A DNA stretch of 43,226 nt from a virus: the IMG/VR virus record IMGVR_UViG_3300022934_000048, positions 1 to 43,226 of that record. One strand, given 5' to 3'. Both the position numbers and the translations under genes were made by a program. The notes below the pieces were generated by a model. It was given only the letters and a program-made list of their open reading frames with translations, was not told where the DNA came from and searched no databases. Shown here one piece after another: positions 1 to 21,454 of this stretch (positions are counted from its first letter, which is position 1; every line of letters begins with the position of its first letter).

Positions 1-996
1 AATATTTCCTTCACTGTCCACAAAAAGAGCGGGTGTTAAGACTGAACTAGTATCTGCGTTATAAGCATAAAGTGCATTTGTTGAGTTGGCACCCGCAATA
101 TTGAAAAATGCGTAATCGTTTTGAGTATTTGATTGTATTCTAGTTGAGATTACTGACACTGGAATGTCATCATTGTCACTTCTGGTGAATCTATATGATG
201 TCATTCGTTCTAAACTGTCACCAACACCTGCACTTCCACTTGTTCCATAGAAAACAGCGACATAAGCGGAACCAGAATTGGTTGAAATGTGTGCACCAAG
301 TTTGGTCAACCCTAGTTTAAACGCAGCATCTCTTAAATTATCTGTTAGATTTGTTTCCCAATACCCAAGAGAAGTTAGAATACCTATTTGGTCTGGACTT
401 AAACTACCCGTTAATAGTGCGGCAAGGGTATCTGAGTCACCAGATGTCGTATCTGTTCTATATCTAGTAGGTGAGATGACCGTTTCAAAGTTTGAATCAA
501 GTACTGTATAGGTTAATCCCGCTAGTCCGGCTGCCGTTTGATAGTCATCATACAATACTTTTCCATTTACGGTCAATAACATAGAAGATGAAACAGAACC
601 TTGTGCATTTGTTACATTTCTACCCACACCTCTTGCATAAATGAACGCATTTCTTAAAATGGACCCTTTGTTGTGACCACCAAACAGGTTATTGATAGTC
701 GCAGTTTTCATTACAGGACGATATGTAGACCCACTAAACGACCCAGAACGTATTAATATTCTATCTTGGTCAAAGATATGACCATCGGCACCATAATCTA
801 CAATACCAGCAGAACCACTTTCTGACCCCAACCAATCTCTAAAGAAGTCACTTAAAAGAATGTTCTCCGCTTTTCCTACACCAGTACGTTGATGTAGTAC
901 ATATCCGTATGTAGTTCCGTTGTACTGGTCAGTATTAGTTAGAATATCATAAGAACCAGTAAACGAACCACTAAATGAACCTTCAAAATCTGCCAT
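1..996 (-). CDS. virion/tail fibre protein, 3'-truncated by window
   Basis: An open frame of 332 codons runs from an ATG at 996 to the window edge with no stop, so the C-terminus is missing. It begins MADFEGSFSGSFTGSYDI and is rich in SGS/TGS turns, like the neighbouring fibre proteins. The ATG overlaps the TAA stop of the 2892-residue fibre gene by one base (TAATG), which implies translational coupling. I recognise no catalytic motif or named family. Its position directly downstream of a giant fibre gene and its Ser/Gly/Thr-rich beta-type composition suggest a virion component, perhaps a fibre partner. That role is inferred from context and composition only. Confidence 0.7.
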   Translation of the reverse strand, partial: MADFEGSFSGSFTGSYDILTNTDQYNGTTYGYVLHQRTGVGKAENILLSDFFRDWLGSESGSAGIVDYGADGHIFDQDRILIRSGSFSGSTYRPVMKTATINNLFGGHNKGSILRNAFIYARGVGRNVTNAQGSVSSSMLLTVNGKVLYDDYQTAAGLAGLTYTVLDSNFETVISPTRYRTDTTSGDSDTLAALLTGSLSPDQIGILTSLGYWETNLTDNLRDAAFKLGLTKLGAHISTNSGSAYVAVFYGTSGSAGVGDSLERMTSYRFTRSDNDDIPVSVISTRIQSNTQNDYAFFNIAGANSTNALYAYNADTSSVLTPALFVDSEGNI

Positions 997-3900
997 TAGT
1001 CTCTATCTTCCAGTTGTTTTTCCAATTCTTCTATACGTGTGGTCAATTCTTTAACAGCATCTATCAAGACCGGAACCAATTTACCATAGGAAACTCCATA
1101 TTGTGTTTCTTCACTACCATAGACCGCTTCTGGAACATATTGTAAGACTTCTTGAGCGGACAATCCTATGTGTAATTTAGTATCTTCCTTGTCTTTCCAA
1201 GTATATTTAATTGGATTTAGGTTATTTACTATAATTAGTCCCCCCGATACATAACTTTCTACATTCTTGAGTCTTATGTCGGAGGTAGCAACAAAGTCAT
1301 CGGCACTACCGGAACCAATTAACAGTAAATTTCCACCTTTATTTAATGTCATTAAATCGGTACTTGAAGCGTCTTCCCATTGTAATTCTTCTGGTGTAGT
1401 ACGATATACTTGTTGTATTCCTACTGTATTGTCATTGTCATAGAAATATATTCCGTGGGGTCCCGCATAACTACCACCCGAACCTAAATTTATTGTAGCG
1501 GAGGCAGCTTGTATTGATAATGTATCTGTTCCATCGTATTGTAGGGTTGATTCACCCTGTAAGGTATTACTAGTACCTGTTCCCGTAATTAAATAATTAT
1601 TAGTATTACTGTTAATAGTGGTGCCTGTTCCACTACCCAATGCAACTGAATTATTACTCGCAATAACAGAACGAGGACCATCTCCACTATCAAAAAATAT
1701 TCCACTACTGTTTAAAACAATAACCGGGGTCGCTTGTGATGCACTTACACTGGCAGTAAACCATGAAGTTAGTGGAGGATTGGATTGGTTTTCCTCTCCC
1801 TCAACTCTAGTTTCTAAAGTAACTGTAATACCATCACCTTCGGTCAATGAACTATAACTTGCCGTAAAGAATCCACTAGTCGTAGAAGCATTAACAAATA
1901 TTGTTCCCAAATCTATGTTAGTATTGTTTGAACCTTGTGCTAGTTTTAAAGTAGGAGTCAATACACTAACATAATCACCCCCACTGGAAGGGTTTGTGGA
2001 ATCTCTTATATCAGTTATAGACACATTAAATTCAATACTATCACCAACCGCGTGTTCTCCGGCGCCAAATGAACCAATAATAGTATCAAATGTAAAATCT
2101 GTACCTTCTCCGGCACCGGGGTCGTATTGAGCAACCTCTTCAGTATATCCACTATTCGTCATATACGATTTAGCAGGAGTAGAAGTACTAGCATTTGGTC
2201 CAATAGTAATATTTGCACTATCACCAACCGTCACATCACCTGCGAAATTACCGTCTTGTGCATATAAACTTCCACTAAAGTATCCGGCGGAAGCACTAAC
2301 TACACCGTCAATATCTAATGTAGAACCATCCCAACGGAGGTGACCAACCGAACCACTTAATGCAAATTGTGGACCTCCTGCATGGAACGAACTAGAACCT
2401 AAGAAAATACCACCAGAATCAAACCCAATACCATCAAATTGACCAATAGATAGATATGGATTCTTTGTTCCACCCGCTAATGTCATATTTGATGGAGCAT
2501 TACCATCAGCACCACCACCCTTTGCATTAATTCCAATGTTTAAAGTATTCCAGATAAAGGATTCTCTAAATACACCCAGTTTAGCGGCAATAAACCGTTC
2601 TTCTAAACCAAGGAATTCCCAAGCCGCTTGTTCTGGGCCGGAACCAGATACGGCAGTTACACTTCCAGTAGAAATGTGGGGAGGACCATAATCATATACA
2701 CTACCAGATGATGGTGGAACAGATGTATGGGTTTTTAGTGCAGCATAATATGCGATAAAATGTTCATCATAATCGTCTGCATAATCTTCTAACGGATACC
2801 CATCAAATGTTGTGGGGTCGCCTGGGACTGAACCTGACGCGGCGGAATACGCAGGACTCCACCACAATACTAAGTCAGTTACTTTAGTATTTTCTCCCGC
2901 AGATTGGTAGAGATAATTTGCACTACCTGTCCATTCTCCACGAACAGACAGACCGGGACCAACATCACCAGAAATAACCGAAGTTATTGAGTGTGTTACA
3001 GGAATTGTTTCACTTGTACTTCCACAACTATCTTTATAAATGACCCCAACGTATACGTTAGATGGATTTAAATTAGAAGGAGTGCCCGGTGTTATTGTTC
3101 CATCACCATTATCTAGGGTGGGCCCACCAGTGTTTGTTTGTGTTAACGTATCATATTTAAATGTTTGGTTAGTAGAAAGACTTGCATCATATGTAAAATT
3201 TTGACCACTCTGAACAACCGTGATACTAAAATTATCTGGGGACTCTGCGGCACCACCACTCTGTGATACGGGTTGTGATGGCGGAACAGCACTAACAGTA
3301 GATGCAGGACACGGGTTTTCAACCACAACCTTTGTTAATGTGAAACTAACTGTTGCCGAACCAGTAGTACTGGCAACAGAACCAGTATATATAACATCTA
3401 CATTTCCAATAAATTTAGTACTACCAGTTATTGCAATCTCATCTTTATCAACATAAACCACACCATTGCTATCAAACGTCATAGCGGACGGTGAAGCGGA
3501 TTGTGATGGAATTCCATATACTCTGGTTATTACAAATTCACTAATGCCTGGGGTTGGGTCGTTGTAAGCTAATTGATTACTTCCTTCAAATCCTGTGATG
3601 GTGACCGGAGCAACTTCACCAGTTATGATATTGGCTGTATTAGAAGTAATTGAATCAGTAGATGGGTCTGCTATAAAATTGATTACTGGTACTTCATCAC
3701 CCTTCTTAGATTTACTAAATGATTGTTTTTTGGTGAAATAGTATTCACTACCTGACATACTTGCAGTAATAGCATAAGTAATACTTGCATTGTCTGCTGT
3801 CATATCACTTGGGTCACCAACTCTAATATAGGGTGATACTGCAGTAAATGTTCCTACGTCTATTGAAGAAGATGTGATTACAGAAGCACTGAATTCACCG

Positions 3901-6900
3901 TGGGTAAGACCATCACTAGTAACATCTGGAGATAAATTAGTTGCTCCATACAACAACTCAATGTCAGTACCACCACCTGTGTATGAAATAACATCTCCGT
4001 TATTTTCTGCGGAAAATACGTGTGATTCATTTGATAAAATTACACTAAACCCGTCTGTTCCCGGCGTAACTCCATAAAATTGATTAGTATCAAAAGCGAC
4101 ACCATCACCAGATTCAGTAACGTGTACTTCAATTAACTGTGCTGTGTAGTCATCTTGGGTTGGGGTAACAAACGAAGCTGTAGCTGTTGATTCTGACCAG
4201 CCGGGGCCTGTAGTAGATAATAACGAACCAGTTCTGTAAAAATTAAATTCATAACTTCCACCTTCAAGATTTTGCGTGGTCGCAGATGCAGTTATTGATG
4301 TCGGTGATGGGTCAAAAGCAAATTCGTCATATACGACCGAATAGTCGGATAATGTTAGTTTTACAACTTTTGCGTCACTTCCACTAGCACCTGCAACACC
4401 GTCAGAAGCAGTTATCGGACTACTAAAGTTTATTTGAACTGGGTTATCACCGGCATATGGTCCATTATTGACCAGACGACCAATACTTACGGAATGACTA
4501 ACACCTATGACAACATCAGTTGATGAAGCTTCTAGCGATTCATATGTGTAAACACCAAAATTATTGTCATCATAATAGATGGTAACATAACTACCAGTTT
4601 TAGCGTGACCAGTAATATATTCTTTGGTATTAGTTGGGCTTTCAAATATTGTAGTAGATGAAGAATTACTAGCCCCAAATCCAATATAATTAACATCTTG
4701 AAAATATGATGATGTGGTAGCCAACGATGCAAATTCAGTTTGAGTCGTATCCCACAATGCCCATTGATTGTCTGCAATGGTAGGTGATGTTATGGTACCG
4801 GGAGTTGTATCAAAAGAGTTCTGTGAATCTGAACGATATACAATCGGTGGGAGTGCGGGCGGTGTTGGAAATCCTTTACTAAATCTAAAGTATACATTGG
4901 TTCCGGCGTCGGTAGATATAGCATCAGTTCCGTCAGCTTCATCGCGAGAAACATATTCTACACCAACAACCACAGAACGATTATCATTTCGTGGAGCCGA
5001 TTCCAATGAAGTTATTTTATACTGATACCAACGAGCACTGGAACTCCAGAAGGTTACATGGTCCCCAATTTCAAGTGTATCTAATAAAGAGGAATTATCT
5101 CTCGTAGGACTATTTGCATCTTGGATATCCCAATGTATATAAGCAACATTGTTTATAAGAGCAGTATGAGAATTAACCCCAGAACCATCATCTAGATTAG
5201 ATGTTGAAAGAGAGTATTGCCCGGGTTGGAAAACTGTACCAGTAGTTTGTAAATCATCATAAAGTAATGAAGCGTTAGTAGAAAATAGAGTCTGTCCCTC
5301 TTTAGATTTACTAAACGATTGTTTTTTAGTGAAGTAATATTCACTACCCGACATACTTGCTGTAATTGCATAGGTAATACTGGCGTTATCCGCGGTCATA
5401 TTACTTGGGTCTGGATACCTGAAGTATACTAGCGATGATGTGGTGGCCGGAGTACCAACTGTTATATTAGTTTGGTCAATAACAGAAGCACTAAATTCTC
5501 CGTGAACTAAACCATCTGACCCCGTGTCTGGAATTAGGTTGGTCGAACCATATAATACTTCAATGTCAGTACCACCACCTGTATATATTTCATTTTCTCC
5601 ATTGAAATCGGTGGGAATGACATGAGAATCATTGGTTAATATTATAGTAAATCCATTTTCTCCAGGCACAACACCATATACATTGACACTATCTTCTACT
5701 TCATAATCGGTATCTAAACTTTCACTTACCTTAACTCTAATTAATTTAGGATTAAACACATCATTTGGCATACCAAAAGATTGTGTAAATTGACCAATAC
5801 CTTCGGCAACTACCGTTTGTAGTTCTACGTCAGTCGAACCAGTAAACCAAGCGAAATATGCAGATTGAGATACTATATTTTGTACACTAGCAGTTGCCTC
5901 AATAGAAGATGGAGATGGGTCTTTACCAAACTCATTGTAAACTATTGAATAATCACTAACGTTTAATCTAACCGTTCTTGCATTTGAACCGGAGGCGCCC
6001 GTTTCTCCATCTTTACCATCTAAAGTAAGAACAAAAGTCTCCTGAGCCAGTTGTTTATAATCATCAATAGAATCAAACAATGAACTCGTGGCAAAAAATG
6101 AGAATCCAAGATTAAATACGTCTCCCCCCGCGGAAACATATTCGTCCGTAAAAGAAGCAGAAACATTATTTGAAGAAGATACAATTACTGAACCAGTTAA
6201 ACCAAATTTACTTGGTGAAAACGATTCTCCAATTCTACCAAATCCATCAACTTTAGCATACAAATATTCAGCTTCACTTCCAGTTTTATACAACGAAGCG
6301 GTTATTTGAGATGGTGTGTCTGGGTCTATTCCACTGGAACCCGATAGCCAAGCAATTGGACCTTTAACTTCTAGTAGTGGTATTAGTGAATCAAGACCGT
6401 CCGTAACGTCTGTAATGTCAATTGTATCTAATACTGTTGACCCAGATTTAAATTGTAATACATCGTGACCAGTAATGTCAGCAGCACTAGCAGAATAGTT
6501 AGCAGAACCGCTTGCTCCCGGAACAGGTGCTCCTGAACTACTAAAAAATAACCCAAAGGTTGAACCCGAGTCGATGGGTGTGACGGTATCTGCTTCAGAC
6601 AATTTAGTTATAAAGATTAGTTCAGTAGGAACCGTAACTCCATTGCCATCGGTTTTAAATGACCTACCGTTTTGGGGTTCAATATAATATCTACTTCCCC
6701 CATCCAAACCATCTGTACCATCATTTGTTTTACTAAAAGATTGTTTTAAAATAAATTTTCTATAATCACTAGAATAGGATGATGTATAGGCAGTAACTTC
6801 ATAAGTTATAGAACCAGTTTTGGAACTTGGTTCCATAAAATCAATGTTACCAAAACTAACATAAGATGCAGTAGAGTTCAAAAATCCTATAGAACCAGTT

Positions 6901-9674
6901 TTTTGTGGTTGATTGACACTCTGTGATGTAATCACAGATGCAGAGAAGTATCCATCTGGTGGTGCAGAACCCGTCCACGGTAATAGATTAGTTCCACCAT
7001 ATAATACTTCAATGTCCGCACCACTACCACCCAATTCTATTGGTGTTCCGTCTGGTTGCGCGGGAATTGTGTGTGCTTCGTTAATTAATATAACAGTCCA
7101 ACCATCTTTTCCTGGCGTTACACCAAAGAAATCGTCAGTATCAAAAGCAATTCCAGCTGCAGATTCAGTAACTTCTACTCTGATTAATTGTGAATCGTAA
7201 TCATCAACTGGTGGTGCGACAAATGAATATGTGACCGGAGTTGTGGGGACGACGGCGAACGATGCCGATGTCGCAAAACTTCCAGTTCTAAAGAAACTAT
7301 ATGTTACTGGAGCTACTAGATTTTGTTGTTGAGCCGAAGCGGTGATGGAAGCCGGATTTGGGTTAGTTGCACCAGCACTATATACAATTGAATAGTCAGA
7401 AAGAGTTAACTTAACAGTTTTTGCGTCCGTTCCGGCCGAACCAGACGGTCCCTGTTCTCCCGGTGTTCCATCTACGGCATCTTTTACTCTATTAAATAAC
7501 AGTTTATCAAAAATAATATCCCCACCGGCACTAGCACTAACTTTCAATAATATAGAACTAGTTGGGTCTGGATTTAATGAAGCTGTTTGTTCACCAAATG
7601 CTGTATGGTACAACTCAATATTTAGATTACCATTACTAGCAGAATAAAATTGTGTTTGTACGGGAACGTTATCGTCATCAACTAATGTAAATTGTGGAGT
7701 ACTTGTTATATTAGTTAATACAACATCAACAGAGGCGGTTTGTTGAGCTGGAGTTGGGGTACCATCTGAACCAAATGAAAATACTTGTCGGTCAGAAATT
7801 AATCTTATTGATGACCCACCACCTTTTGGTGGAAGTTCTATCGGGTCACTAATAAATTCATCGGAAATATCACCGGCCCAACCAATAAATTCTATCTTAA
7901 AGATATATGTTGTTCCAGTTAATATTGTATCTTCTGCATACACCACGATTTCATCTGGGTTGTACCCATACTCAACCGCGGGTGTAATTACAAAGTTACT
8001 AAAGTTCCAGAAACCACTATCAACTATGAAACGAAGATAAGCAACACCATCTCGTCCAACTTCAAAATTAACTCTTCTCTCGTATAATCCCTTGTCATTG
8101 TTCTTTGTGTTAACTTCATCTACTAATAATCCGTATGTATTTTCTACGGGCCCCTGAGCGATAATCACGGATGAACTTGCTATTGAGGCAGCGTCACTAC
8201 CAATTCGTGTTAGGTATGCCTTGACCGAACCTGTGTCTGTTGTAGAATATGTTGTACTACTTGAGACATAGGTTGGGTTGTATACGGCATCATACTTTAA
8301 TGTATACTGAACACCTTGGTATAATTGATAGAACTCTTGTGTTCCAACGTAATATGGAACAGCACTTTCTGTGTGGTCAGCGTAAAATCCTTCTAGTATT
8401 TCAGTAGAAGAGGTGACCAGAGTTATTGGATTGGCAGATTGACTGTTTTCGTAATCGGTAATGTTGACCAGACCTGACTGCCAATGGTTTTGTAGTCGGT
8501 CATCGGTCAAGAATCTACCTACAGAAATATTTCCTGTGTTTGACCCAGTGACTAGAATATTTCTTTCGCCGGGATTAAACTCAGTTAATAGTTGGTATGC
8601 AGTAATCTCTGGATTTGCTTCTTTAGCACTAATCCTAACCTTAGCAATTTCACCAGTGTGTGTTTGTGTATAAGGAATTCTAAAGTTTAAAATAGAAGAA
8701 TTATTAGCAGAAACGGTTAATGTTTCTGTTGGATACTCAAATATAACACTGGATGTAATTTCTTCTTCCAGTTTTCTTACAAGATTACCACCCAAGTCAT
8801 CTGAGGTTACAACTCTGGAATATGAACCAGAACGGAGTATTGGATTTAAGTAATCATCACCATTACCAAACTTAATTGACTTTTCGGTGATTGCTAATGT
8901 TTCGTTTAAGGTTTTAAATAATGGTGTATATACACTAGCAGTTACATAATTTAAAACAATACTTTGTGAATCTGGAACTAATACTCCGGTATCGTATAAA
9001 TTACGAATTTCTCTTTTATATATTGACCCAGTAAAGTATCCATCTATACTTACATCATCAAAAAATGGTGTTGCATTACCACTACTATCCAACATTGTGA
9101 TAGCATAACCATCTGACCTGTGACCCTCAAAGTCATAGTCTAGTGATGCCGTGTATGTACTGCTGGTTACAAACGCATCGGTTCTGCTTGTTGTATTAAA
9201 GTCTGTTCTTGTGACCGAAAGACCATCTAAAATTTGAGCGGGGGTGTTTTGTAAAATTAATTTACTGGTGTTTCTTCTTGACGGGTCAATAGTAACATTA
9301 ATTATTCTACGAACGAAACGGGGTTGAATAGAGTTGCCATTTAAATCTTCGGTAGCAACACCTACTAGAACAATTTGACCAGCACCCTTTGTTGTTTTTT
9401 GTGTAATTTCTATAGATACAAGGCGAGCATCACCTTCGGAATAATTACCAATAACATTAGAAAATATAGATTTACCGTATCTATCTAATACTTCCACTTG
9501 GATTGTAGAACCTTGTTGTAAAAACGAACTTCCACGAAGTAAAAATCCATTTTTACCGGCGTGAAGATTTGTATTTAATCCAGATACGCCAAAATATTTC
9601 TGTTGTGTGTCTTCTATAACACCCGTATAACTTAATAAATTAAGTTTCTGGGGGGTTCTTGGAGTTCTAGCCAT
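996..9674 (-). CDS. giant modular tail fibre with C-terminal S74 chaperone domain
   Basis: This 2892-residue protein is almost certainly a trimeric tail fibre or tailspike. Its C-terminus carries a peptidase S74 intramolecular chaperone (endosialidase-type): SDIRLKN starts at about residue 2798, followed by NPIKYTWK, IGLSAQEV, the VSYGKLVPVLIDAVKEL helix and a terminal coiled coil. In this family the Ser of the SDxRxK motif is the self-cleavage site that releases the chaperone after trimerisation. The middle contains three related modules of about 235 residues (near 745-986, 1225-1460 and 1760-1992), each preceded by a short collagen-like G-x-x stretch such as GTPGEQGPSGSAG. The N-terminus (RTPQKLNLLSYTGVIED) probably docks on the baseplate. 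Composition is very rich in S, T, G and N. The start at 9674 has only a weak SD (TTAGGGT). Fibre identity is secure; the receptor is unknown. Confidence 0.9.
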   Translation of the reverse strand: MARTPRTPQKLNLLSYTGVIEDTQQKYFGVSGLNTNLHAGKNGFLLRGSSFLQQGSTIQVEVLDRYGKSIFSNVIGNYSEGDARLVSIEITQKTTKGAGQIVLVGVATEDLNGNSIQPRFVRRIINVTIDPSRRNTSKLILQNTPAQILDGLSVTRTDFNTTSRTDAFVTSSTYTASLDYDFEGHRSDGYAITMLDSSGNATPFFDDVSIDGYFTGSIYKREIRNLYDTGVLVPDSQSIVLNYVTASVYTPLFKTLNETLAITEKSIKFGNGDDYLNPILRSGSYSRVVTSDDLGGNLVRKLEEEITSSVIFEYPTETLTVSANNSSILNFRIPYTQTHTGEIAKVRISAKEANPEITAYQLLTEFNPGERNILVTGSNTGNISVGRFLTDDRLQNHWQSGLVNITDYENSQSANPITLVTSSTEILEGFYADHTESAVPYYVGTQEFYQLYQGVQYTLKYDAVYNPTYVSSSTTYSTTDTGSVKAYLTRIGSDAASIASSSVIIAQGPVENTYGLLVDEVNTKNNDKGLYERRVNFEVGRDGVAYLRFIVDSGFWNFSNFVITPAVEYGYNPDEIVVYAEDTILTGTTYIFKIEFIGWAGDISDEFISDPIELPPKGGGSSIRLISDRQVFSFGSDGTPTPAQQTASVDVVLTNITSTPQFTLVDDDNVPVQTQFYSASNGNLNIELYHTAFGEQTASLNPDPTSSILLKVSASAGGDIIFDKLLFNRVKDAVDGTPGEQGPSGSAGTDAKTVKLTLSDYSIVYSAGATNPNPASITASAQQQNLVAPVTYSFFRTGSFATSASFAVVPTTPVTYSFVAPPVDDYDSQLIRVEVTESAAGIAFDTDDFFGVTPGKDGWTVILINEAHTIPAQPDGTPIELGGSGADIEVLYGGTNLLPWTGSAPPDGYFSASVITSQSVNQPQKTGSIGFLNSTASYVSFGNIDFMEPSSKTGSITYEVTAYTSSYSSDYRKFILKQSFSKTNDGTDGLDGGSRYYIEPQNGRSFKTDGNGVTVPTELIFITKLSEADTVTPIDSGSTFGLFFSSSGAPVPGASGSANYSASAADITGHDVLQFKSGSTVLDTIDITDVTDGLDSLIPLLEVKGPIAWLSGSSGIDPDTPSQITASLYKTGSEAEYLYAKVDGFGRIGESFSPSKFGLTGSVIVSSSNNVSASFTDEYVSAGGDVFNLGFSFFATSSLFDSIDDYKQLAQETFVLTLDGKDGETGASGSNARTVRLNVSDYSIVYNEFGKDPSPSSIEATASVQNIVSQSAYFAWFTGSTDVELQTVVAEGIGQFTQSFGMPNDVFNPKLIRVKVSESLDTDYEVEDSVNVYGVVPGENGFTIILTNDSHVIPTDFNGENEIYTGGGTDIEVLYGSTNLIPDTGSDGLVHGEFSASVIDQTNITVGTPATTSSLVYFRYPDPSNMTADNASITYAITASMSGSEYYFTKKQSFSKSKEGQTLFSTNASLLYDDLQTTGTVFQPGQYSLSTSNLDDGSGVNSHTALINNVAYIHWDIQDANSPTRDNSSLLDTLEIGDHVTFWSSSARWYQYKITSLESAPRNDNRSVVVGVEYVSRDEADGTDAISTDAGTNVYFRFSKGFPTPPALPPIVYRSDSQNSFDTTPGTITSPTIADNQWALWDTTQTEFASLATTSSYFQDVNYIGFGASNSSSTTIFESPTNTKEYITGHAKTGSYVTIYYDDNNFGVYTYESLEASSTDVVIGVSHSVSIGRLVNNGPYAGDNPVQINFSSPITASDGVAGASGSDAKVVKLTLSDYSVVYDEFAFDPSPTSITASATTQNLEGGSYEFNFYRTGSLLSTTGPGWSESTATASFVTPTQDDYTAQLIEVHVTESGDGVAFDTNQFYGVTPGTDGFSVILSNESHVFSAENNGDVISYTGGGTDIELLYGATNLSPDVTSDGLTHGEFSASVITSSSIDVGTFTAVSPYIRVGDPSDMTADNASITYAITASMSGSEYYFTKKQSFSKSKKGDEVPVINFIADPSTDSITSNTANIITGEVAPVTITGFEGSNQLAYNDPTPGISEFVITRVYGIPSQSASPSAMTFDSNGVVYVDKDEIAITGSTKFIGNVDVIYTGSVASTTGSATVSFTLTKVVVENPCPASTVSAVPPSQPVSQSGGAAESPDNFSITVVQSGQNFTYDASLSTNQTFKYDTLTQTNTGGPTLDNGDGTITPGTPSNLNPSNVYVGVIYKDSCGSTSETIPVTHSITSVISGDVGPGLSVRGEWTGSANYLYQSAGENTKVTDLVLWWSPAYSAASGSVPGDPTTFDGYPLEDYADDYDEHFIAYYAALKTHTSVPPSSGSVYDYGPPHISTGSVTAVSGSGPEQAAWEFLGLEERFIAAKLGVFRESFIWNTLNIGINAKGGGADGNAPSNMTLAGGTKNPYLSIGQFDGIGFDSGGIFLGSSSFHAGGPQFALSGSVGHLRWDGSTLDIDGVVSASAGYFSGSLYAQDGNFAGDVTVGDSANITIGPNASTSTPAKSYMTNSGYTEEVAQYDPGAGEGTDFTFDTIIGSFGAGEHAVGDSIEFNVSITDIRDSTNPSSGGDYVSVLTPTLKLAQGSNNTNIDLGTIFVNASTTSGFFTASYSSLTEGDGITVTLETRVEGEENQSNPPLTSWFTASVSASQATPVIVLNSSGIFFDSGDGPRSVIASNNSVALGSGTGTTINSNTNNYLITGTGTSNTLQGESTLQYDGTDTLSIQAASATINLGSGGSYAGPHGIYFYDNDNTVGIQQVYRTTPEELQWEDASSTDLMTLNKGGNLLLIGSGSADDFVATSDIRLKNVESYVSGGLIIVNNLNPIKYTWKDKEDTKLHIGLSAQEVLQYVPEAVYGSEETQYGVSYGKLVPVLIDAVKELTTRIEELEKQLEDRD
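3697..4395 (-). repeat. fibre module C of three
   Basis: Third copy of the module: VKLTLSDYSVVY, VTPGTDGFSVILSNESH, TDIELLYGATNLSP, ASITYAITASMSGSEYYF and KQSFSKSKKGD. It is closest to module B. A GASGSDAK collagen-like lead-in precedes it. Confidence 0.85.
5293..6000 (-). repeat. fibre module B of three
   Basis: Second copy of the module: VRLNVSDYSIVY, VVPGENGFTIILTNDSH, TDIEVLYGSTNLIP, ASITYAITASMSGSEYYF and KQSFSKSKEG. The last third is nearly identical to module C at the protein level and close at the DNA level (5302-5409 against 3704-3812), which points to recent duplication or gene conversion. Confidence 0.85.
6715..7440 (-). repeat. fibre module A of three
   Basis: First copy (protein order) of a module of about 240 residues. 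It runs from the VKLTLSDYSIVY motif through VTPGKDGWTVILINEAH and ADIEVLYGGTNLLP to KQSFSKTNDG. It is the most divergent copy. Boundaries are approximate because I placed them by reading the translated motifs. Confidence 0.8.
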
Positions 9675-9719: not shown

Positions 9720-12700
9720 TCAATTCGTCGTATTTATATGACTGTAACCGTTGACCTTTTTGATTTCAATGATGTTGTCAACCATGTCGCGGATGTTATC
9801 TAGGTGGCTGATGACCACGACATAATCAAACTGAGCTTTCAATAAGTCAAACATTAATTGCATACCGTGGAGGTATTCACTATCAAGACTACCCATACCC
9901 TCATCAATGATAAGGAAGTTTGACTTGGGTAGATTTGAAGCCTTCAAAAGTGCAACACGGATTGCTAGACTACTAATGAATCTTTCCATTCCAGAACTAT
10001 TCTCAAGAGGCCACGAACGTTCGTGGTCATACACGATACGACCACCAAAATTCTTACCATCAACATCAAGAGCGATAGAGAACGGAACAATCTGAGACAG
10101 AATGTTGTTAATCTCACCTTCAATTACTGGAATGGTTTTGGAGATAAGTTGATATGGGATGCCATCTTTACCAACTGCGTCCATATAATATCGGTATGCT
10201 TCAAACTCTTTCTCAATTTGTGCAATCTCGTTGAGTTGTTCCATAATGTTTGACCGACTTGACTCTTTTACTTTGACCGACGAGTGCAAATCCATCTTGT
10301 TATCATTCAAACTACTCAGTGTTGATTTTATTTTTTGTAATTCTTCTTTGTGGACCAGTATCTTTTCATCAACTTGTCTGTTTGTGACCAACGCAGAAGC
10401 ATACTTGTCCAACTCTTCAAACTGAACTTCAACATTACTCAAGTCTGTATTCAGAGTATCAAGTTGATTCTTGGACTTGTCTATGTTATTTCTGGAACCT
10501 TGGAGGTCTACGTGTAATTTTTGGTAAATGTCAACCAGATTTTTAGCAGAAATAAACTTATCGTGGTCAGGCTTGAGTGTATCCATCTCAAGTTTAATGA
10601 TTGTTATCTGTTCTGCTAGTTCACTTGACTTGTCAGTTAGTTCATTAATCTGATTGGTAATCTCTGCAATTCTCTCTAACTTAGACTTGTTGTTCTCAAC
10701 ACACACTTCACAATCTGGATTGTAGTTAAATGTTGATAGTTGTTCAATTGTTTGGTGTTTACTATCAATATTTGTTGAAGCAAGTGTGTAAGTTTGTTCA
10801 AGTTTTGATAAATTTCGTTCAAGTTCTTGATATTTTTTGTAATTTCGTTCTAATTCTGTCAAATTGACATCATTTAGTTTTTCTTTTACAGAAGTAAATT
10901 GAGCATCAATATCTTTTTCTTCTTGTTCAAGTATGACCAAGTTTGCTGTTAACACATCAATTTTCTTGACTAATGATGCTTGGTTGCTAACTAGGACTTC
11001 TTTACTGGGAACATTACTGGGAACAGGTAGTTTTTGTGTATTTAGTTGTTCAATTTCTACAGAATGTTGGTCGGCACTTAATCCAGCGGCATCAATGTTA
11101 CTTTGAACCTCTAGTAATTGTAGATTTAGTTCTTCAATGTCATTTTGTAGTTGAACCAGTTGGTCTGTGAAGTCTTCACGACTAAACTTTTTTAATACTC
11201 CTTGTAACTGCTTACTTTCTTCGTTTGCTACTCGTTCTAGCAACTCAAACACAATCAGTCCCATAAACTGATTGAGTAGGACTTTTCGTTCACTATTTGA
11301 CTTATCAATGAACAATGAGTTGCCTGTTTGACCAGATAGTGTGGTCAGAATAAAATCTTCGTAAGTTCCAACGATTCCACGGATATTTGCGTTGGTTGAG
11401 AACCTATCTTCACCATTTAGTATGGTTTGTGTTCCATCATCGTTCTCTTTCCAGAATTTTACATCAACTCTTACGGCACCTTTCTTGTTTTTCTTACCTT
11501 TTCGGTTAATTACATAGATTGTTCCGTTGACCTCAAACTTTAACTCACATTCAAAGGTTTTCTTGCGGATATTCATAATGTGGTCACCACGATACGCTCT
11601 TGGTGTCTTGTCAAAGAGTGCATAGATGAGTGCTTCCATAGATGAACTCTTACCACTAGCGTTTGGTGCAAATATTCCGTATGTTCCTTTCATATTAGTA
11701 AAGTCTACAAAGTTATCTTCACCATACGAAAATAAGTTAGAGAAACTGAATGTGAGTGGTTTCCAATGAATATTTCTGGATTGGTCTATGTTTGATATAA
11801 GACCATTCATCTTTCTGTTGATTGACCGACATTGCTCAATCAATTCTGGTGATGCGATTGGATGATTTGTCTCAATCCACTCACTAATGAACTGATTTTG
11901 GACATTTATGTCACTCAGGTCACCAATATCAATAGAAAGTGGTCCTCGTTGACCAGTTTGGCTATTATTTCTGCTTGGATTGACCGAAACATCAACAATT
12001 TTGTATTTTTTCTTGATGACCGAGATGATTTTCTTCAATTTTGTGTTCTCAACCGAAGAAAATATTCTAAGACGAAGGTTTTTCGGTAAATTATCGGGAA
12101 CTGAGAACTTATTTAGGTCTTGTTGGTCAATATCAAAGGTTACATAACCAGTATCGTTCTGTAATTGCACAAACTCAAACTTTCTCTTTGGAATATCCCA
12201 TATAACATACCCGTGACCATCTAATGTTTCGCCGTGGTTTTGTTGGATAAGAGAACTGGCATAAACCACAACAGGTTTGCCCGAAGTCTTGTTTCTTGTT
12301 TGCAATACTTGGTGTTTGTGAATGTCACCCAACATTACAATGTCTAGTCCGTCAAAACGACTTACCTCAACGTGCCTTGAGCTGATTGTGTAGTTTGTAT
12401 CGGTCTTTGCACCATAAACTGGTCCGTGATATAGACCAATGTTGGTTTTTCCTGTCATAGTTGACACATCCGGCCAATCTTCGGGGTCACCAATGACCGA
12501 AAAGAGTGCGAATTGTGTGTCAGCCATCTCGTAGATACCACTTTCTGTTAGATAGAACAAGTTTGAGTGGTCAATATTCTTTACGATAGGGTAAAGACTA
12601 TTCATTCGGTGAGGATTTGACAAATTTAAGTCGTGGTTACCATCAAAGATAATGGTTGGTGCGATTTGTGCTAACTTTTTTAGAAAATCTGAAGCTAGGT

Positions 12701-12911
12701 CAATCATTTCTGGTGACATATCCAACTTGGCGTGTAAGATATCACCAGCAACAACGATTGCACTATTGGTCAGGTCAAGTTTCTTTAGTTCTTTGTAAAG
12801 TTTATCAAAGGCGTCTCTATATTCTCCGTGTCGTTGGAACAAACGGATGTGAATGTCGGCCATATGAACTACTTTTTCTAGCTTATCAAATCCTACGAAT
12901 AGTTTTTTCAT
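9720..12911 (-). CDS. fused Mre11/SbcD nuclease - Rad50/SbcC ATPase (gp47-gp46 fusion)
   Basis: One uninterrupted 1063-residue frame contains both halves of the recombination nuclease that T4 encodes as separate gp47 and gp46. Residues 1-380 are a calcineurin-like phosphoesterase with ADIHIR (D19, H21), GDILH (D57), GNHD (91-94), H162 and GDIHKH (195-200), the usual metal ligands. Residues from about 385 on are Rad50-like: Walker A APNASGKS (415-422; the usual first Gly is Ala), a long coiled coil with a zinc hook CEVC (C734, C737), a second coiled coil, signature SSGMERF (about 972-978), Walker B FLIIDE (about 999-1004), and the switch His in ISHLD (about 1036). The complex processes DNA ends for recombination-dependent replication. 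The ATG follows the primase stop by 3 bases (TAATTTATG) with no Shine-Dalgarno, so coupling is likely. Confidence 0.93.
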   Translation of the reverse strand: MKKLFVGFDKLEKVVHMADIHIRLFQRHGEYRDAFDKLYKELKKLDLTNSAIVVAGDILHAKLDMSPEMIDLASDFLKKLAQIAPTIIFDGNHDLNLSNPHRMNSLYPIVKNIDHSNLFYLTESGIYEMADTQFALFSVIGDPEDWPDVSTMTGKTNIGLYHGPVYGAKTDTNYTISSRHVEVSRFDGLDIVMLGDIHKHQVLQTRNKTSGKPVVVYASSLIQQNHGETLDGHGYVIWDIPKRKFEFVQLQNDTGYVTFDIDQQDLNKFSVPDNLPKNLRLRIFSSVENTKLKKIISVIKKKYKIVDVSVNPSRNNSQTGQRGPLSIDIGDLSDINVQNQFISEWIETNHPIASPELIEQCRSINRKMNGLISNIDQSRNIHWKPLTFSFSNLFSYGEDNFVDFTNMKGTYGIFAPNASGKSSSMEALIYALFDKTPRAYRGDHIMNIRKKTFECELKFEVNGTIYVINRKGKKNKKGAVRVDVKFWKENDDGTQTILNGEDRFSTNANIRGIVGTYEDFILTTLSGQTGNSLFIDKSNSERKVLLNQFMGLIVFELLERVANEESKQLQGVLKKFSREDFTDQLVQLQNDIEELNLQLLEVQSNIDAAGLSADQHSVEIEQLNTQKLPVPSNVPSKEVLVSNQASLVKKIDVLTANLVILEQEEKDIDAQFTSVKEKLNDVNLTELERNYKKYQELERNLSKLEQTYTLASTNIDSKHQTIEQLSTFNYNPDCEVCVENNKSKLERIAEITNQINELTDKSSELAEQITIIKLEMDTLKPDHDKFISAKNLVDIYQKLHVDLQGSRNNIDKSKNQLDTLNTDLSNVEVQFEELDKYASALVTNRQVDEKILVHKEELQKIKSTLSSLNDNKMDLHSSVKVKESSRSNIMEQLNEIAQIEKEFEAYRYYMDAVGKDGIPYQLISKTIPVIEGEINNILSQIVPFSIALDVDGKNFGGRIVYDHERSWPLENSSGMERFISSLAIRVALLKASNLPKSNFLIIDEGMGSLDSEYLHGMQLMFDLLKAQFDYVVVISHLDNIRDMVDNIIEIKKVNGYSHINTTN
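9731..9738 (-). promoter_or_regulatory. T4-type late promoter TATAAATA
   Basis: An exact TATAAATA on the minus strand lies within the last codons of the SbcD-SbcC gene, 57 bases upstream of the giant fibre ATG. T4-family gp55 sigma recognises TATAAATA, and a gp55-like gene is present at 29955-30686. The site is coding as well, so a chance match is possible. Confidence 0.45.
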
Positions 12912-12914
12912 AAA

Positions 12915-13835
12915 TTATACCATTTTTAATTTCGTTCCGACCAAATCAGTGAAACTGCTGTTCACTGCGTTCTGAATGTTGACCCAAGACTCTTCAAATC
13001 CCATATCACTTGGGTCTTTTCCGGTTGGAACTACTAATTTAACATTTACATTAACAGATTTCAAGTATTTCTCAATCCATAACGCTTCTGACCGTGCATC
13101 GTGGTCTAACATTACATAAACCATTGGTGGTTTGTGTTCAACCAACCTCTGTCTCAACTTATCTGACATAACTTTTCCTAACAACGGAACACAATTTCTA
13201 CGAACTGCGATTGCATCAAACATTCCTTCTACCAGAACAACAGGCATTCTCCAATTGATTAGATTTTCAAAGATAATATTGTTTCTGGACGCTGGTGGGT
13301 TCTTGTATTTCATACCCTCGTCGTAATATGTTCTGGATACAAAATAATTAAGTTGCATATTCCTGTCAAACGATGGAATAATGATGCGATTCTTGTATTT
13401 TCCGTCGTCACAATACCCAATCTGGTATCGGTAGATATCGTCTGTGGTGACGCCTCTAGACTTGAGGAACCGGATGGCGTTCATATACTCGTATGTCTTT
13501 TCCGTGACCCTCCAGAGGGGTTTATACTCCCTTGGCAGGGTTATCTTGACCTTGTATTCCTCTGGGTTTTCTTTGGGGTTATAGGACGATTCTAGGTCGC
13601 CTAGGATAGACTTGATTTCTTTTTTGGAATACCCCAACTTGTAGAGCAATGAGGAGATTTTCTTTCCGCTCTCGTCACAAACCCAGCACTTCCAATACCC
13701 CGAACGTTTACCGAAGTTAATGGAAAGTTTTGGTTTGTGGTGATAGCAAAAAGGACAATGGAACAGACGTTCATCACTGGAGGTCTTTCTTGATGTTCCA
13801 AGTATGTCTTCTAAAGAAAAAAGTATATTATCCAT
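12915..13835 (-). CDS. DnaG-type DNA primase
   Basis: This 306-residue protein synthesises RNA primers at the replication fork. The N-terminal zinc ribbon has C27-x2-C30 and C50-x2-C53 (HCPFC and KCWVC). A catalytic Toprim region follows: VVLVEGMFDAIA (E203), VMLDHDA (D244, D246) and GKDPSDMG (about 272-279). It lacks a recognisable C-terminal helicase-binding domain and is slightly shorter than T4 gp61 (342 residues), to which it is functionally equivalent by context. The resolvase-like nuclease gene ends 15 bases upstream, and the SbcD-SbcC gene starts 3 bases after its stop. No Shine-Dalgarno precedes the ATG, but a sigma-70-like promoter whose start point would fall near the ATG lies immediately upstream. 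Alternative in-frame starts would cut into the zinc domain, so I keep 13835. Confidence 0.9.
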   Translation of the reverse strand: MDNILFSLEDILGTSRKTSSDERLFHCPFCYHHKPKLSINFGKRSGYWKCWVCDESGKKISSLLYKLGYSKKEIKSILGDLESSYNPKENPEEYKVKITLPREYKPLWRVTEKTYEYMNAIRFLKSRGVTTDDIYRYQIGYCDDGKYKNRIIIPSFDRNMQLNYFVSRTYYDEGMKYKNPPASRNNIIFENLINWRMPVVLVEGMFDAIAVRRNCVPLLGKVMSDKLRQRLVEHKPPMVYVMLDHDARSEALWIEKYLKSVNVNVKLVVPTGKDPSDMGFEESWVNIQNAVNSSFTDLVGTKLKMV

Positions 13836-13841
13836 ATATGG

Positions 13842-13870
13842 AATATAGTATCATTCACCACATTTGTCAA
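13842..13870 (-). promoter_or_regulatory. sigma-70-like promoter for primase
   Basis: The minus strand has TTGACA (13865-13870), a 17-base spacer and TATATT (13842-13847). That is a perfect -35 with a 5/6 -10 at optimal spacing. Transcription would start about at the primase ATG (13835), giving a leaderless or nearly leaderless mRNA. It overlaps the end of the upstream nuclease gene, so part of the match is constrained by coding. Confidence 0.5.
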
Positions 13871-14198
13871 GTAACTCAAACAAATGTTCTGCTTCAAATG
13901 CTACATATAATTTAGAACGATTTCGTTTGAAAAACAAGAGGGGATTGGAATCTTCCCTAGAATTTTCGGCAGCTTGGTCTAATGCTGACCAGATGTTGAG
14001 CTTTTCTACATTCTTAGCTTCCACCGAATATGGAAATAAATTACGGGCGGCCGGGGAAAGTTTAATGTCCTCTCCCGACTCGCCCATAATTGCAGTCTTT
14101 ACATCGTCTGGATGTAATTGTGGAAAATTTTCTAGTATTAATTCGCGTATTTGGTTTTGTAACCGGCGACCTTTGGCTTTTGCGCTACTTGGCCTCAT
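13851..14198 (-). CDS. PD-(D/E)XK nuclease, possible Holliday-junction resolvase
   Basis: This is a 115-residue basic protein. The pattern GESGEDIKLS (D44), SVEAKN (E60-A-K62) and a following Q75 matches the PD-(D/E)XK nuclease core. The size and the N-terminal RRLQNQIREL helix resemble small archaeal Hjc/RecU-type resolvases. It would cut branched or structured DNA during recombination or packaging, replacing the unrelated T4 endonuclease VII. A Shine-Dalgarno (GTGAGGT) sits 5 bases before the ATG. It is followed at once by primase and the fused SbcD-SbcC, a coherent DNA-metabolism set. The nuclease fold is fairly well supported; the specific resolvase role is inferred. Confidence 0.6.
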   Translation of the reverse strand: MRPSSAKAKGRRLQNQIRELILENFPQLHPDDVKTAIMGESGEDIKLSPAARNLFPYSVEAKNVEKLNIWSALDQAAENSREDSNPLLFFKRNRSKLYVAFEAEHLFELLDKCGE

Positions 14199-17356: not shown

Positions 17357-20300
17357 TTAATCACAGTCAGCACAAGGTTGTGGTGTTCCGACTGTTAGTG
17401 TATTTGTTTCACTCTCAAATATTTCATATGGAAAAGTATTAGATCCATATGGACCGGGAATAGCTGTACTAACAGTATTTGTTGTTCCTAAATATGTTCT
17501 TCTAAGACCACCAAAGGTTTTGTCCCTACATAATTCAAAATGTATATGACCGGGGAACTCATTTCTATATCCAATTGGGACAACTCCATAAGGAGTTGTT
17601 AAGTCTGTCAACACACTAACTTTATAATATTCGATAGAACTACCCGTGACAAATTCTGGGTCGGCTCCCCAATTGGTATCTCCCGGTTTTAATCCAAGAT
17701 ATTTTGTTTTGCCTGGTTCTTGATAAGAACCCGTTACTAAAATAGCCCTGACAGCTTTTTGATAAACTTGTCGTATTTGTGGAACGACTCTCCAAAGATT
17801 TTGTTCTTCGACCGGAGAATACAATGTTTCTGTTGCGGTTTGTTTGTAGAAGGCATATTCTGTTCCTTCATAAGTAACAATGTCTCCCCTAATATATGTT
17901 TCACCACTAGTCCAAGTTCCTCTATCTCTAGGACCACCACCCTGTTGAACAAATGTCATAGAACCTTGTGTATAGTTTGGAACAGTTCTATTAGTATTAA
18001 CATAATACAAACCTGCGCCATTTGTAAAATATGAATTAGCGGCAGTTAGTCCAGAAAATCTGCCATTTGGAATACTCCACAAATCACATTTTGGTCCGTA
18101 TCCAATTAAACTAGATTCAATTTCTGCAGATAGATTTTCAGTTGACCTATTAAATATTATTCCCTCTAGTGCACCGAATGAACTGGTATTTCCTAATGTT
18201 TCAGAAGAAATAAACGCGTTTTGACCAAAAACATTTATTTGACTTTCTAAAAAGTCATATTGAGCAGTTAGTGATGAATAATCAGTTGTAACAATGGTAG
18301 AGGACCAATCATTTAAAGTTATTGAAGAGTCGTTATTACCAAATGTTGTATATATTTCTGTAGACAATAATTCTTCTGCTGGTTTCCCTGAGAGTGCATT
18401 TAGATTTACATCAAATGAATATACTGCATCACGTTCAAAATCTAATGACCTTCTGGACGTTTCACCACTAAACTTAATGTTTTCTTTGTTGTTGACCTTT
18501 GTTCTATTCAAGATATTTGGTCTAATAACAATTCCTTTTCTCAACTTTGACCTAGCAGGCAAGAATTGTTCTATTGACTCATAGAAATTATTTAAGAACT
18601 TATCAAAGAATCTAACAAAACCATTGTGATTTATGGTTGGTGCTAATTCTCTAATAAATACAGTTTCTAATGCATCTAATCCAGAATAACTTTCTCTATT
18701 TGTATCTCTTGGGTCACCCAAATATTGACCAAGTTGTATATTACCAAACGAACGAATAATTTCTCTGTCAACTGCGTCCACAGGTGATATAGAAATATCC
18801 AATTCGTTTGTAGCTACACTACTAGTCAGGAATTTTTCATACACACCAACCGTTGTGTCTGTGCTACTTAATGACATTGTTGCTGGGGGATCGGGTGCAA
18901 TTCTAATCATATCTGTAGTATCTGATGCAAAATAAGAATTTTGTGTTACAGATCTGATTATTCTTGATGTATTATATAATGGTGAAGTTCCCACTGGGAA
19001 CTCTCCGGCTGTTATATTGGTCAAATCTAACGCAACTGATTTACTTACATAAGGACTTGTATTTGGAATGGAACCAGTTGTATTAACATCCGTTGGTAAG
19101 TTAAATGATAGTCTAACATATAAGTCTTCTAGAGAAGATGTATAAGTATTACCGGCATACATACCGGGGTTTTCTGCAAACTCAATAAACTTAGCTTCTG
19201 TTATTGTGTCTCCCCACATTCTAAACTCGTCAAGAGAAGCACTTGTGTATTCAGCACCACTAGCAGAAGCGGCGGGAATACCGATATACAGTTCTTCTAA
19301 CCCCGACCAATCAGCACTCATACTCATTTGAGTTTCTTGTAATGATTGTGTGAAGGTTGTGTCCTCGTTTTCTATTTTTCTAATGTCAAGTATAGCACCA
19401 GCACTATCATATTTTAATTGCAGTGAGACATAGTTTGCGTCAAACAAATCAAAATAACTACTGGTGACCAATGCAACCGATGCAGACATAAGGTCAATCC
19501 TACCTGTGTTGGCATAGTAGGTATTTGTAGAACCGTCTGGATGATATGTTGCTTGAATTGTGTAATCATTATCAAATCTAAATACAGGTTGTGTTCTGTC
19601 GTCTATTAAAGCAAAAGTAGATTGTATTGTTTGTGGTTCTCTCAAACTTGAGCTAAATGGAACAACTAGATATGAACCACTTGGAACATTTAAAACAAAA
19701 TCTTGTTCAGTTGTAGTTACTTTCTTTGGTTCTAAACTTGTGTATCTGCCTGATATATTTTCTTTTATTGTAATTAAATCTGGATTGATTCCAAATACGT
19801 TTAACAACGAATGAACGGATTGTTTTGTTCCCTTAGTTCTTAGTAGGAATGGTAGTGCGTGTAAATATCTCTTATAATATTCATTAGCGATATCTTTGTA
19901 TGGGTCATTTGTATTATTACCCGTTACATAATTTATCAGCTTTTCTACACTGGCAATACTTGGAGCGCTAATTCCAAATGACTCAAGAACCTTCTTAGCC
20001 ATATCACCAGAAATTTCTTCGTCAACCTTGGGGTATCTAGAAGATATATTTTCTAAGTTTGTAATATATGTTTTTACATTATCAAACTGGTGACCAATCA
20101 TTTCTGTAAAGGTTACAAAATCACCAGAGAACTCATCTTCTTGAATATACGTTGGAACATTTTTACTTAGTATATTTTGATTGTCATTATCATAATCAGT
20201 AGCAATCACACTCATTGATGTGTACCAAGCAGATGAGGAATCATGTGTAGTTGCTAATGGAATTCCTAATATTTTTGGATAGGTGTAGTCATCTGTTTGA

Positions 20301-21454
20301 TATTGTGTTGTATTATAGTATTCACCATTTGATGCAGTATATTCTAGTCCTGTTCTAAACCACAATTCTTTTTCATATCCATCAAAACTACGCATCAACT
20401 CTTGTATCTTAATAGATGTATTAATTGAACTGTTAATGGCCGTTTCATCTACAGTATTGCCATTGTAAAGAACATCATAAAGATTAGAAGAACCAGTTAA
20501 TTCTAAACTAGCACTACCAACCGAATCAATTGAAAGAGTTCCAAAAACTGTTTCATAGCTTCCAGTATCGGCAGCGGATGCAGAAATATTAAGATTTTCA
20601 ATGTATATTGGAGCGTCTAAAACATAATTCTCTATTTGTTCTAATTTAGCTTTAAATACATCCAAACGTTTTTGTGCCGACCCAAATGTAACAAAATTTT
20701 CAAAATTAGAATAGTCTACATTTATATCAAATCCTGAGTTATTATTATACAAACTTTCTAATATATTATTTGTCACATAATTTCTATATTCGCTTATTCC
20801 TTGCAAGGTTCCTTCACCACCAGCAATATTTGGAATGAGTTCTTCTAAGGTAGCGGTTACCCTAGACAAATTGCCAATAGAAACATTTTGAGCGGGTCTT
20901 AATTGTGGAACCAGTAATTCTTCAATAGTCAAAAAGTGTAATTTTTCATATACACTACTTAACATTTCTCTAGAAATAAATGCACTTGTATCTATAGGAT
21001 ACTCTGTTGTATCTAATGGTTCTAATAATTTTAATGCAATTTCTGGATATCCTGTAATTGTTCCATCTTCATCATATTCAACCTCACCTACAGATTTCCA
21101 ATTTAAAATTGGAACCTGTCTATCATTACGAAGATTGAGTAATGTTTTGGCAACACGCATATCATCGTAATAGTCATCGAATTCCGGTCTGAATTTGGTG
21201 AGAATTAATTCTTTTAAAATACTCTTAAGAGGAACAGTTACGTGTTCTTCTACTGTAATTTCAAAATCAAAAGATACAAGGGTTCCCGATTGACCATTTA
21301 TTGTTGTGCTTATAGGACCACCACCGCCGCTAGTATTTCCGCCGCTAGTATTTCCGCCGCTAGTATTTCCAGTGCCAGTATTTCCGGTACCAGTTCTTCT
21401 GCCGCTTTCTAAATCGCCGCCATTTTCATTTTGTTCGTCACGATGTTGTGGCAT
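17357..21454 (-). CDS. large baseplate/tail structural protein with LamG-like and carbohydrate-binding-like regions
   Basis: This 1365-residue protein is probably the functional counterpart of a T4 baseplate wedge protein such as gp7, judged from position after gp6 and from size. The N-terminus has a Gly/Asn/Thr repeat tract (GNTSG units). Around residues 530-560, YYKRYLHALPFLLRTKGTKQ followed by a VHSLLNVFGI helix is a motif I associate with large tail proteins of marine phages. Residues about 610-770 resemble a LamG/concanavalin sandwich (LDEFRMWGDTITEAKF). Around 1175-1215, WTSGETYIRGDIVTYEGTEY with a later NLWR matches the spacing of family 5/12 carbohydrate-binding modules. It ends PQPCADCD. 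The ATG is weakly served (CCAGAG). The gp7 equivalence is inference; the virion role is well supported by context. Confidence 0.8.
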   Translation of the reverse strand: MPQHRDEQNENGGDLESGRRTGTGNTGTGNTSGGNTSGGNTSGGGGPISTTINGQSGTLVSFDFEITVEEHVTVPLKSILKELILTKFRPEFDDYYDDMRVAKTLLNLRNDRQVPILNWKSVGEVEYDEDGTITGYPEIALKLLEPLDTTEYPIDTSAFISREMLSSVYEKLHFLTIEELLVPQLRPAQNVSIGNLSRVTATLEELIPNIAGGEGTLQGISEYRNYVTNNILESLYNNNSGFDINVDYSNFENFVTFGSAQKRLDVFKAKLEQIENYVLDAPIYIENLNISASAADTGSYETVFGTLSIDSVGSASLELTGSSNLYDVLYNGNTVDETAINSSINTSIKIQELMRSFDGYEKELWFRTGLEYTASNGEYYNTTQYQTDDYTYPKILGIPLATTHDSSSAWYTSMSVIATDYDNDNQNILSKNVPTYIQEDEFSGDFVTFTEMIGHQFDNVKTYITNLENISSRYPKVDEEISGDMAKKVLESFGISAPSIASVEKLINYVTGNNTNDPYKDIANEYYKRYLHALPFLLRTKGTKQSVHSLLNVFGINPDLITIKENISGRYTSLEPKKVTTTEQDFVLNVPSGSYLVVPFSSSLREPQTIQSTFALIDDRTQPVFRFDNDYTIQATYHPDGSTNTYYANTGRIDLMSASVALVTSSYFDLFDANYVSLQLKYDSAGAILDIRKIENEDTTFTQSLQETQMSMSADWSGLEELYIGIPAASASGAEYTSASLDEFRMWGDTITEAKFIEFAENPGMYAGNTYTSSLEDLYVRLSFNLPTDVNTTGSIPNTSPYVSKSVALDLTNITAGEFPVGTSPLYNTSRIIRSVTQNSYFASDTTDMIRIAPDPPATMSLSSTDTTVGVYEKFLTSSVATNELDISISPVDAVDREIIRSFGNIQLGQYLGDPRDTNRESYSGLDALETVFIRELAPTINHNGFVRFFDKFLNNFYESIEQFLPARSKLRKGIVIRPNILNRTKVNNKENIKFSGETSRRSLDFERDAVYSFDVNLNALSGKPAEELLSTEIYTTFGNNDSSITLNDWSSTIVTTDYSSLTAQYDFLESQINVFGQNAFISSETLGNTSSFGALEGIIFNRSTENLSAEIESSLIGYGPKCDLWSIPNGRFSGLTAANSYFTNGAGLYYVNTNRTVPNYTQGSMTFVQQGGGPRDRGTWTSGETYIRGDIVTYEGTEYAFYKQTATETLYSPVEEQNLWRVVPQIRQVYQKAVRAILVTGSYQEPGKTKYLGLKPGDTNWGADPEFVTGSSIEYYKVSVLTDLTTPYGVVPIGYRNEFPGHIHFELCRDKTFGGLRRTYLGTTNTVSTAIPGPYGSNTFPYEIFESETNTLTVGTPQPCADCD
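21326..21400 (-). repeat. 15-bp tandem repeat encoding GNTSG units
   Basis: Five 15-base units: three identical copies of gccgctagtatttcc on the plus strand, then two diverged ones. On the coding strand they give GNTSG three times, then GNTGT and a degenerate copy, near the N-terminus of the 1365-residue protein. This is a flexible Gly/Asn/Thr linker and a likely site of copy-number slippage. Confidence 0.9.

Follow-up and report, generated by a model that had tools for sequence, protein, structure and literature searches.

The fused gene and its replication neighborhood

The window analyzed here is the whole 43,226-nucleotide stretch of the IMG/VR virus record IMGVR_UViG_3300022934_000048, itself a genome fragment. 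On its minus strand, at 9720..12911, lies a single 1063-aa open reading frame with an ATG start and no internal stops, in which a Mre11/SbcD nuclease half precedes a Rad50/SbcC ATPase half. That nuclease and ATPase occupy one frame had been proposed in a sequence-only reading, and is borne out by Pfam and PHROGs matches and by independent homologs. The calcineurin-type Mre11 phosphoesterase and capping domain (residues 1-312; 11976..12911, minus strand) is delimited by AlphaFold2 secondary structure and by matches to Pfam Metallophos (residues 13-199, E 1.8e-9), and to the SbcD-like PHROGs family phrog_100 (residues 13-312, 5.9e-25). It is followed by a helix-loop-helix (HLH) Rad50-binding domain (residues 335-369) and a 12-residue linker (370-381; together 11769..11909, minus strand), recognized from predicted helices, alignment to gp47 C-termini and linker length. 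The remainder (residues 382-1063; 9723..11768, minus strand) comprises Rad50/SbcC ATPase lobes and short coiled-coil arms with a CEVC zinc hook, as indicated by the SbcC-like phrog_77 (residues 285-1061, 2.1e-54), SbcC and Rad50 matches in the PDB and a motif table; Pfam SMC_N and AAA_23 match this part weakly, under the curated cut-off. Sequence matches of the fusion in the PDB include E. coli SbcC, archaeal Rad50, and Thermotoga Mre11. The arms of E. coli SbcC are much longer.

A DnaG-type primase gene (12915..13835, minus strand; phrog_47, E 4.9e-45) begins 3 nt upstream of the fusion, preceded by a gene for a RusA-like Holliday junction resolvase (13851..14198, minus strand; phrog_244, E 1.8e-18). 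Nearly all relatives have the primase next to the fusion. Of 12 long related records with the fusion, eight encode RecA. In nine long relatives there is one clear SbcC-like gene and no second, and the Microcystis phage Mel-JY01 has two further weak SbcC-like matches (E 7e-6 and 2e-4); most related long records thus have no clear SbcC-like gene other than the fused one. T4 gp46/47 act in recombination-dependent replication, a role that fits this setting of primase, resolvase and RecA and the lone SbcC-like gene.

Three other minus-strand genes in the window were also noted. A 2892-aa Ser/Thr-rich protein (996-9674), likely a tail fiber or adhesin, contains short collagen-like segments (Gly-x-x-Gly) and carries a Peptidase_S74 chaperone domain at its C-terminus. 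A 1365-aa protein (17357-21454) has a weak match, below the curated cut-off, to the carbohydrate-binding module CBM_5_12, and an Hsp20-like small heat shock protein (phrog_432) is encoded near the contig end (42819-43190).

Single-frame fusions across related phages

Single-ORF fusions made up 89 of 94 scanned sequences, the remainder being contig-end truncations or one split gene; the count takes in the window, a duplicate of it (L013) and a 100%-identical record (L004), and motif and linker counts below therefore refer to 87 nonduplicate fusions. The single frame is shared by at least 85 further records assembled independently, Mel-JY01 among them, and IMG/VR has full-length copies (L004-L009) with 63-100% identity. 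In a scan with the fusion alignment, the best 80 of at least 584 relatives comprised 79 complete fusions in one frame and one copy (L025) cut off by the end of its contig; as these are the best-scoring matches, they establish that fusions are common throughout the closest group but should not be read as an unbiased estimate of frequency. Beyond IMG/VR, single-frame fusions are encoded by Mel-JY01, a 735-kb uncultured huge phage, and Tenacibaculum phage pT24; the pT24 protein, of 1310 aa, has the motifs of both Mre11 and Rad50. Among plasmids there was no full-length match, and the matches listed cover the Rad50 part only.

The window is a metagenomic contig, and an assembly or sequencing error that deleted a stop between two separate genes would produce just such a frame, as the sequence-only reading had recognized. 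The uninterrupted frame recurs, however, at 25-100% identity in independent contigs, Mel-JY01 and pT24, and the linker is fixed in length with conserved residues; we regard the chance of such an error as negligible and have discarded an assembly artifact on the strength of the independent homologs. Between the window and a full-length copy (L005), residues 1-312 have dN 0.064 and dS 0.64 and the Rad50 lobes dN 0.035-0.043. With dN well below dS in both, the two halves of the gene are under purifying selection.

In a tree of Rad50 parts, a branch separates the fused ATPases from the separate phage gp46 proteins; the Mre11 tree shows no such division, and with their long branches the two trees favor neither a single nor a multiple origin of the fusion. 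A Bacteroidales MAG contig (L098) encodes a separate 284-aa SbcD with GHIH at the last nuclease motif, and no SbcC was found beside it within the fetched flanks.

Two of the records have unusual gene structures. In a 484-kb uncultured phage (L002, LR756508.1; 5980-10202), an ORF of ∼290 aa interrupts the fusion gene directly after GDIHKRQ. This ORF has zinc-finger-like cysteines and weakly matches a TnsA-like endonuclease, and the 3' part of the fusion gene has an ATG of its own, an arrangement recalling genes split by homing endonucleases. A group I or other intron at this site was considered and rejected, Rfam giving zero hits above gathering and only chance-level snoRNA matches (E up to 1). 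At 670999-672753 and 278537-282130, the 735-kb phage (L003, LR756501.1) has both a strong separate SbcC-like match and its fused protein; one TAG and three TAA codons interrupt the separate frame, so this gene may be broken up or read with a different genetic code.

Junction and catalytic motifs

The fusion is an ordinary gp47 joined end to end with gp46. Its domains are those of T4 gp47/gp46, and in an alignment that took in the separate proteins of T4, Staphylococcus phage GH15, Synechococcus phage ACG-2014f, and Acidovorax phage ACP17, the C-terminal HLH region of gp47 and the N-terminus of gp46 meet at the junction. In an AlphaFold2 monomer model (mean pLDDT 82.7), residues 335-349 and 355-369 form the HLH helices and 370-381 the linker, and the first strand of Rad50 is at 382. 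Confidence is low only at 315-326, between capping domain and HLH, and at 528-531; the model's pTM of 0.45 means that the relative placement of the domains is not established. Both the model and the gp47 alignment indicate that the capping domain and the HLH Rad50-binding region are retained. The linker is 12 residues long in 85 of 87 homologs and ends in a conserved R-N-I-x-W.

It had been argued from the sequence that covalent fusion fixes a 1:1 stoichiometry and must alter how the nuclease docks on the ATPase heads. The former holds, the fusion being real; the latter is not supported. Calculations for Thermotoga gave 9-12 linker residues as enough for the canonical geometry (PMC3175470), and the 12-residue linker falls within this range for HLH-to-Rad50 spacing. 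With the HLH retained, a linker of this length, and Rad50 starting where it usually does, docking in cis would be expected to be canonical, and these features together with the monomer model suggest that the fusion is compatible with it.

All nuclease metal motifs and the ATPase Walker A, zinc hook, signature and Walker B had been reported as present in the frame, which is true of the ATPase and true of the nuclease save for its last motif. The Rad50/SbcC set is complete, with Walker A (APNASGKS, 415-422), Q-loop (Q528), CxxC hook (CEVC, 734-737), signature (SSGME, 972-976), Walker B and D-loop (LIIDEGMGSLD, 1000-1010), and H-loop (H1036). The Mre11/SbcD metal motifs are ADIH (18-21), GDILH (56-60), GNHD (91-94), LYHG (160-163), and GDIH (195-198), the last having Asp for the first His of the canonical GHxH in all 87 fusions. 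The Walker A had been called atypical for its initial Ala. The Ala is indeed there, but the standard P-loop pattern, [AG]xxxxGK[ST], allows it; as the residue is also kept in 85 of 87 fusions, we dropped it as a meaningful oddity.

Two features are odd and fixed in the fusion lineage: GDIH and the signature SGME, a variant of SGGE, both invariant among the 87 fusions. Separate phage proteins have GHxH in gp47 and SEGE, SAGE, or SGGE in gp46, although with four gp47 and five gp46 proteins compared, a sample rather than a survey, this contrast is only suggestive. Replacement of a metal-binding His and of a signature Gly means that activity may differ from that of the T4 and E. coli enzymes, and the protein could have taken on an altered job, mainly as a structural DNA tether or as a nuclease of different specificity. 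We consider this unlikely, since Asp is able to bind Mn, the T4 gp46 signature (SEGE) likewise departs from SGGE, and the rest of the metal site is conserved (D19, D57, N92, H93, H162, and H198 in 87/87 fusions; H21 in 80/87), as is seldom the case in dead nucleases. A tentative and rather doubtful extension is that GDxH, SGME and the length-locked 12-aa linker mark a large aquatic-phage lineage with strictly cis coupling between ATPase and nuclease and catalysis unlike that of the two-subunit enzymes.

Function and relation to known systems

We propose, with a probability of roughly 0.88, that the gene encodes a single-chain Mre11-Rad50 nuclease, the equivalent of T4 gp47-gp46, in a large aquatic myovirus. 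Foldseek matches include the SbcCD hairpin complex (7yzp), Rad50 (5dny), and Mre11 (3qg5_C), and also SMC proteins of Lamassu and JetABC, which could point to a Lamassu- or Jet-like defense SMC-nuclease instead of a recombination enzyme. Homology at the gene level is nevertheless to the SbcC and SbcD PHROGs, and the fusion sits beside a primase and is kept across related phages, making a defense role very improbable. As a recombination nuclease, two chains would dimerize via the ATPase heads and zinc hook, with the HLH of each gripping a coiled-coil root, its own or its partner's. ATP binding and hydrolysis would gate the nuclease so that DNA ends are resected or opened, and this end processing may serve recombination-dependent replication and concatemer processing together with a RecA/UvsX protein, the primase, and the resolvase. 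We infer this dimer architecture, biochemistry, and role for the fusion from the comparisons made here.

Yoshida, Claverie and Ogata (2011) described 13 Mre11/Rad50 fusions from Mimivirus, bacteria, plasmids, eukaryotes, and one Bacillus phage (PMC3175470); searches of the literature for more recent work on proteins of this kind yielded only this paper. Named carriers include Mimivirus (R555), plasmids of Deferribacter and Clostridium kluyveri, Bacillus phage 0305phi8-36, and aquatic metagenome homologs, and aquatic phages were inferred to be rich in fusions, some of them on scaffolds with primases (PMC3175470), as in the window. Published fusions share the layout seen here, an N-terminal Mre11 with capping and HLH regions, a short linker and a C-terminal Rad50. 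R555, known here by its description, also has Asp at the metal site, replacing His206 of P. furiosus (PMC3175470), and is larger (1351 vs. 1063 aa). Unlike the window's protein, the 0305phi8-36 fusion is without the capping/HLH part (PMC3175470). A close counterpart is encoded by Mel-JY01 (PP395634.1), where a single 1067-aa fusion (WWT39521.1), annotated only as an AAA domain protein, is 35% identical end to end. Gene order there is tail genes, GIY-YIG, primase and fusion, with the primase and GIY-YIG genes just upstream, although a small ORF separates primase from fusion. In T4, by contrast, there are two proteins, GHxH is present, and two small ORFs lie between the genes; E. coli SbcCD and the Thermotoga and archaeal Mre11-Rad50 complexes, matched by sequence and fold, likewise have separate subunits.

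The fusion is real, yet its kind has been known since 2011 and is common in this phage group. The rarity implied by the sequence-only reading fails because most of the closest phages have the fusion as a rule and such proteins were already published; the search for single-chain homologs found them widespread in that group, an outcome which the reading itself had named as refuting it. The GDIH and SGME substitutions are testable, and structural work might find a convenient model in a single-chain enzyme of 1063 aa; the overall importance is modest. Full-length contigs confirm what had been inferred from short reads (PMC3175470), namely that in a large group of aquatic phages the fused form of Mre11-Rad50 is standard, and in most of the long relatives it is the sole clear one.
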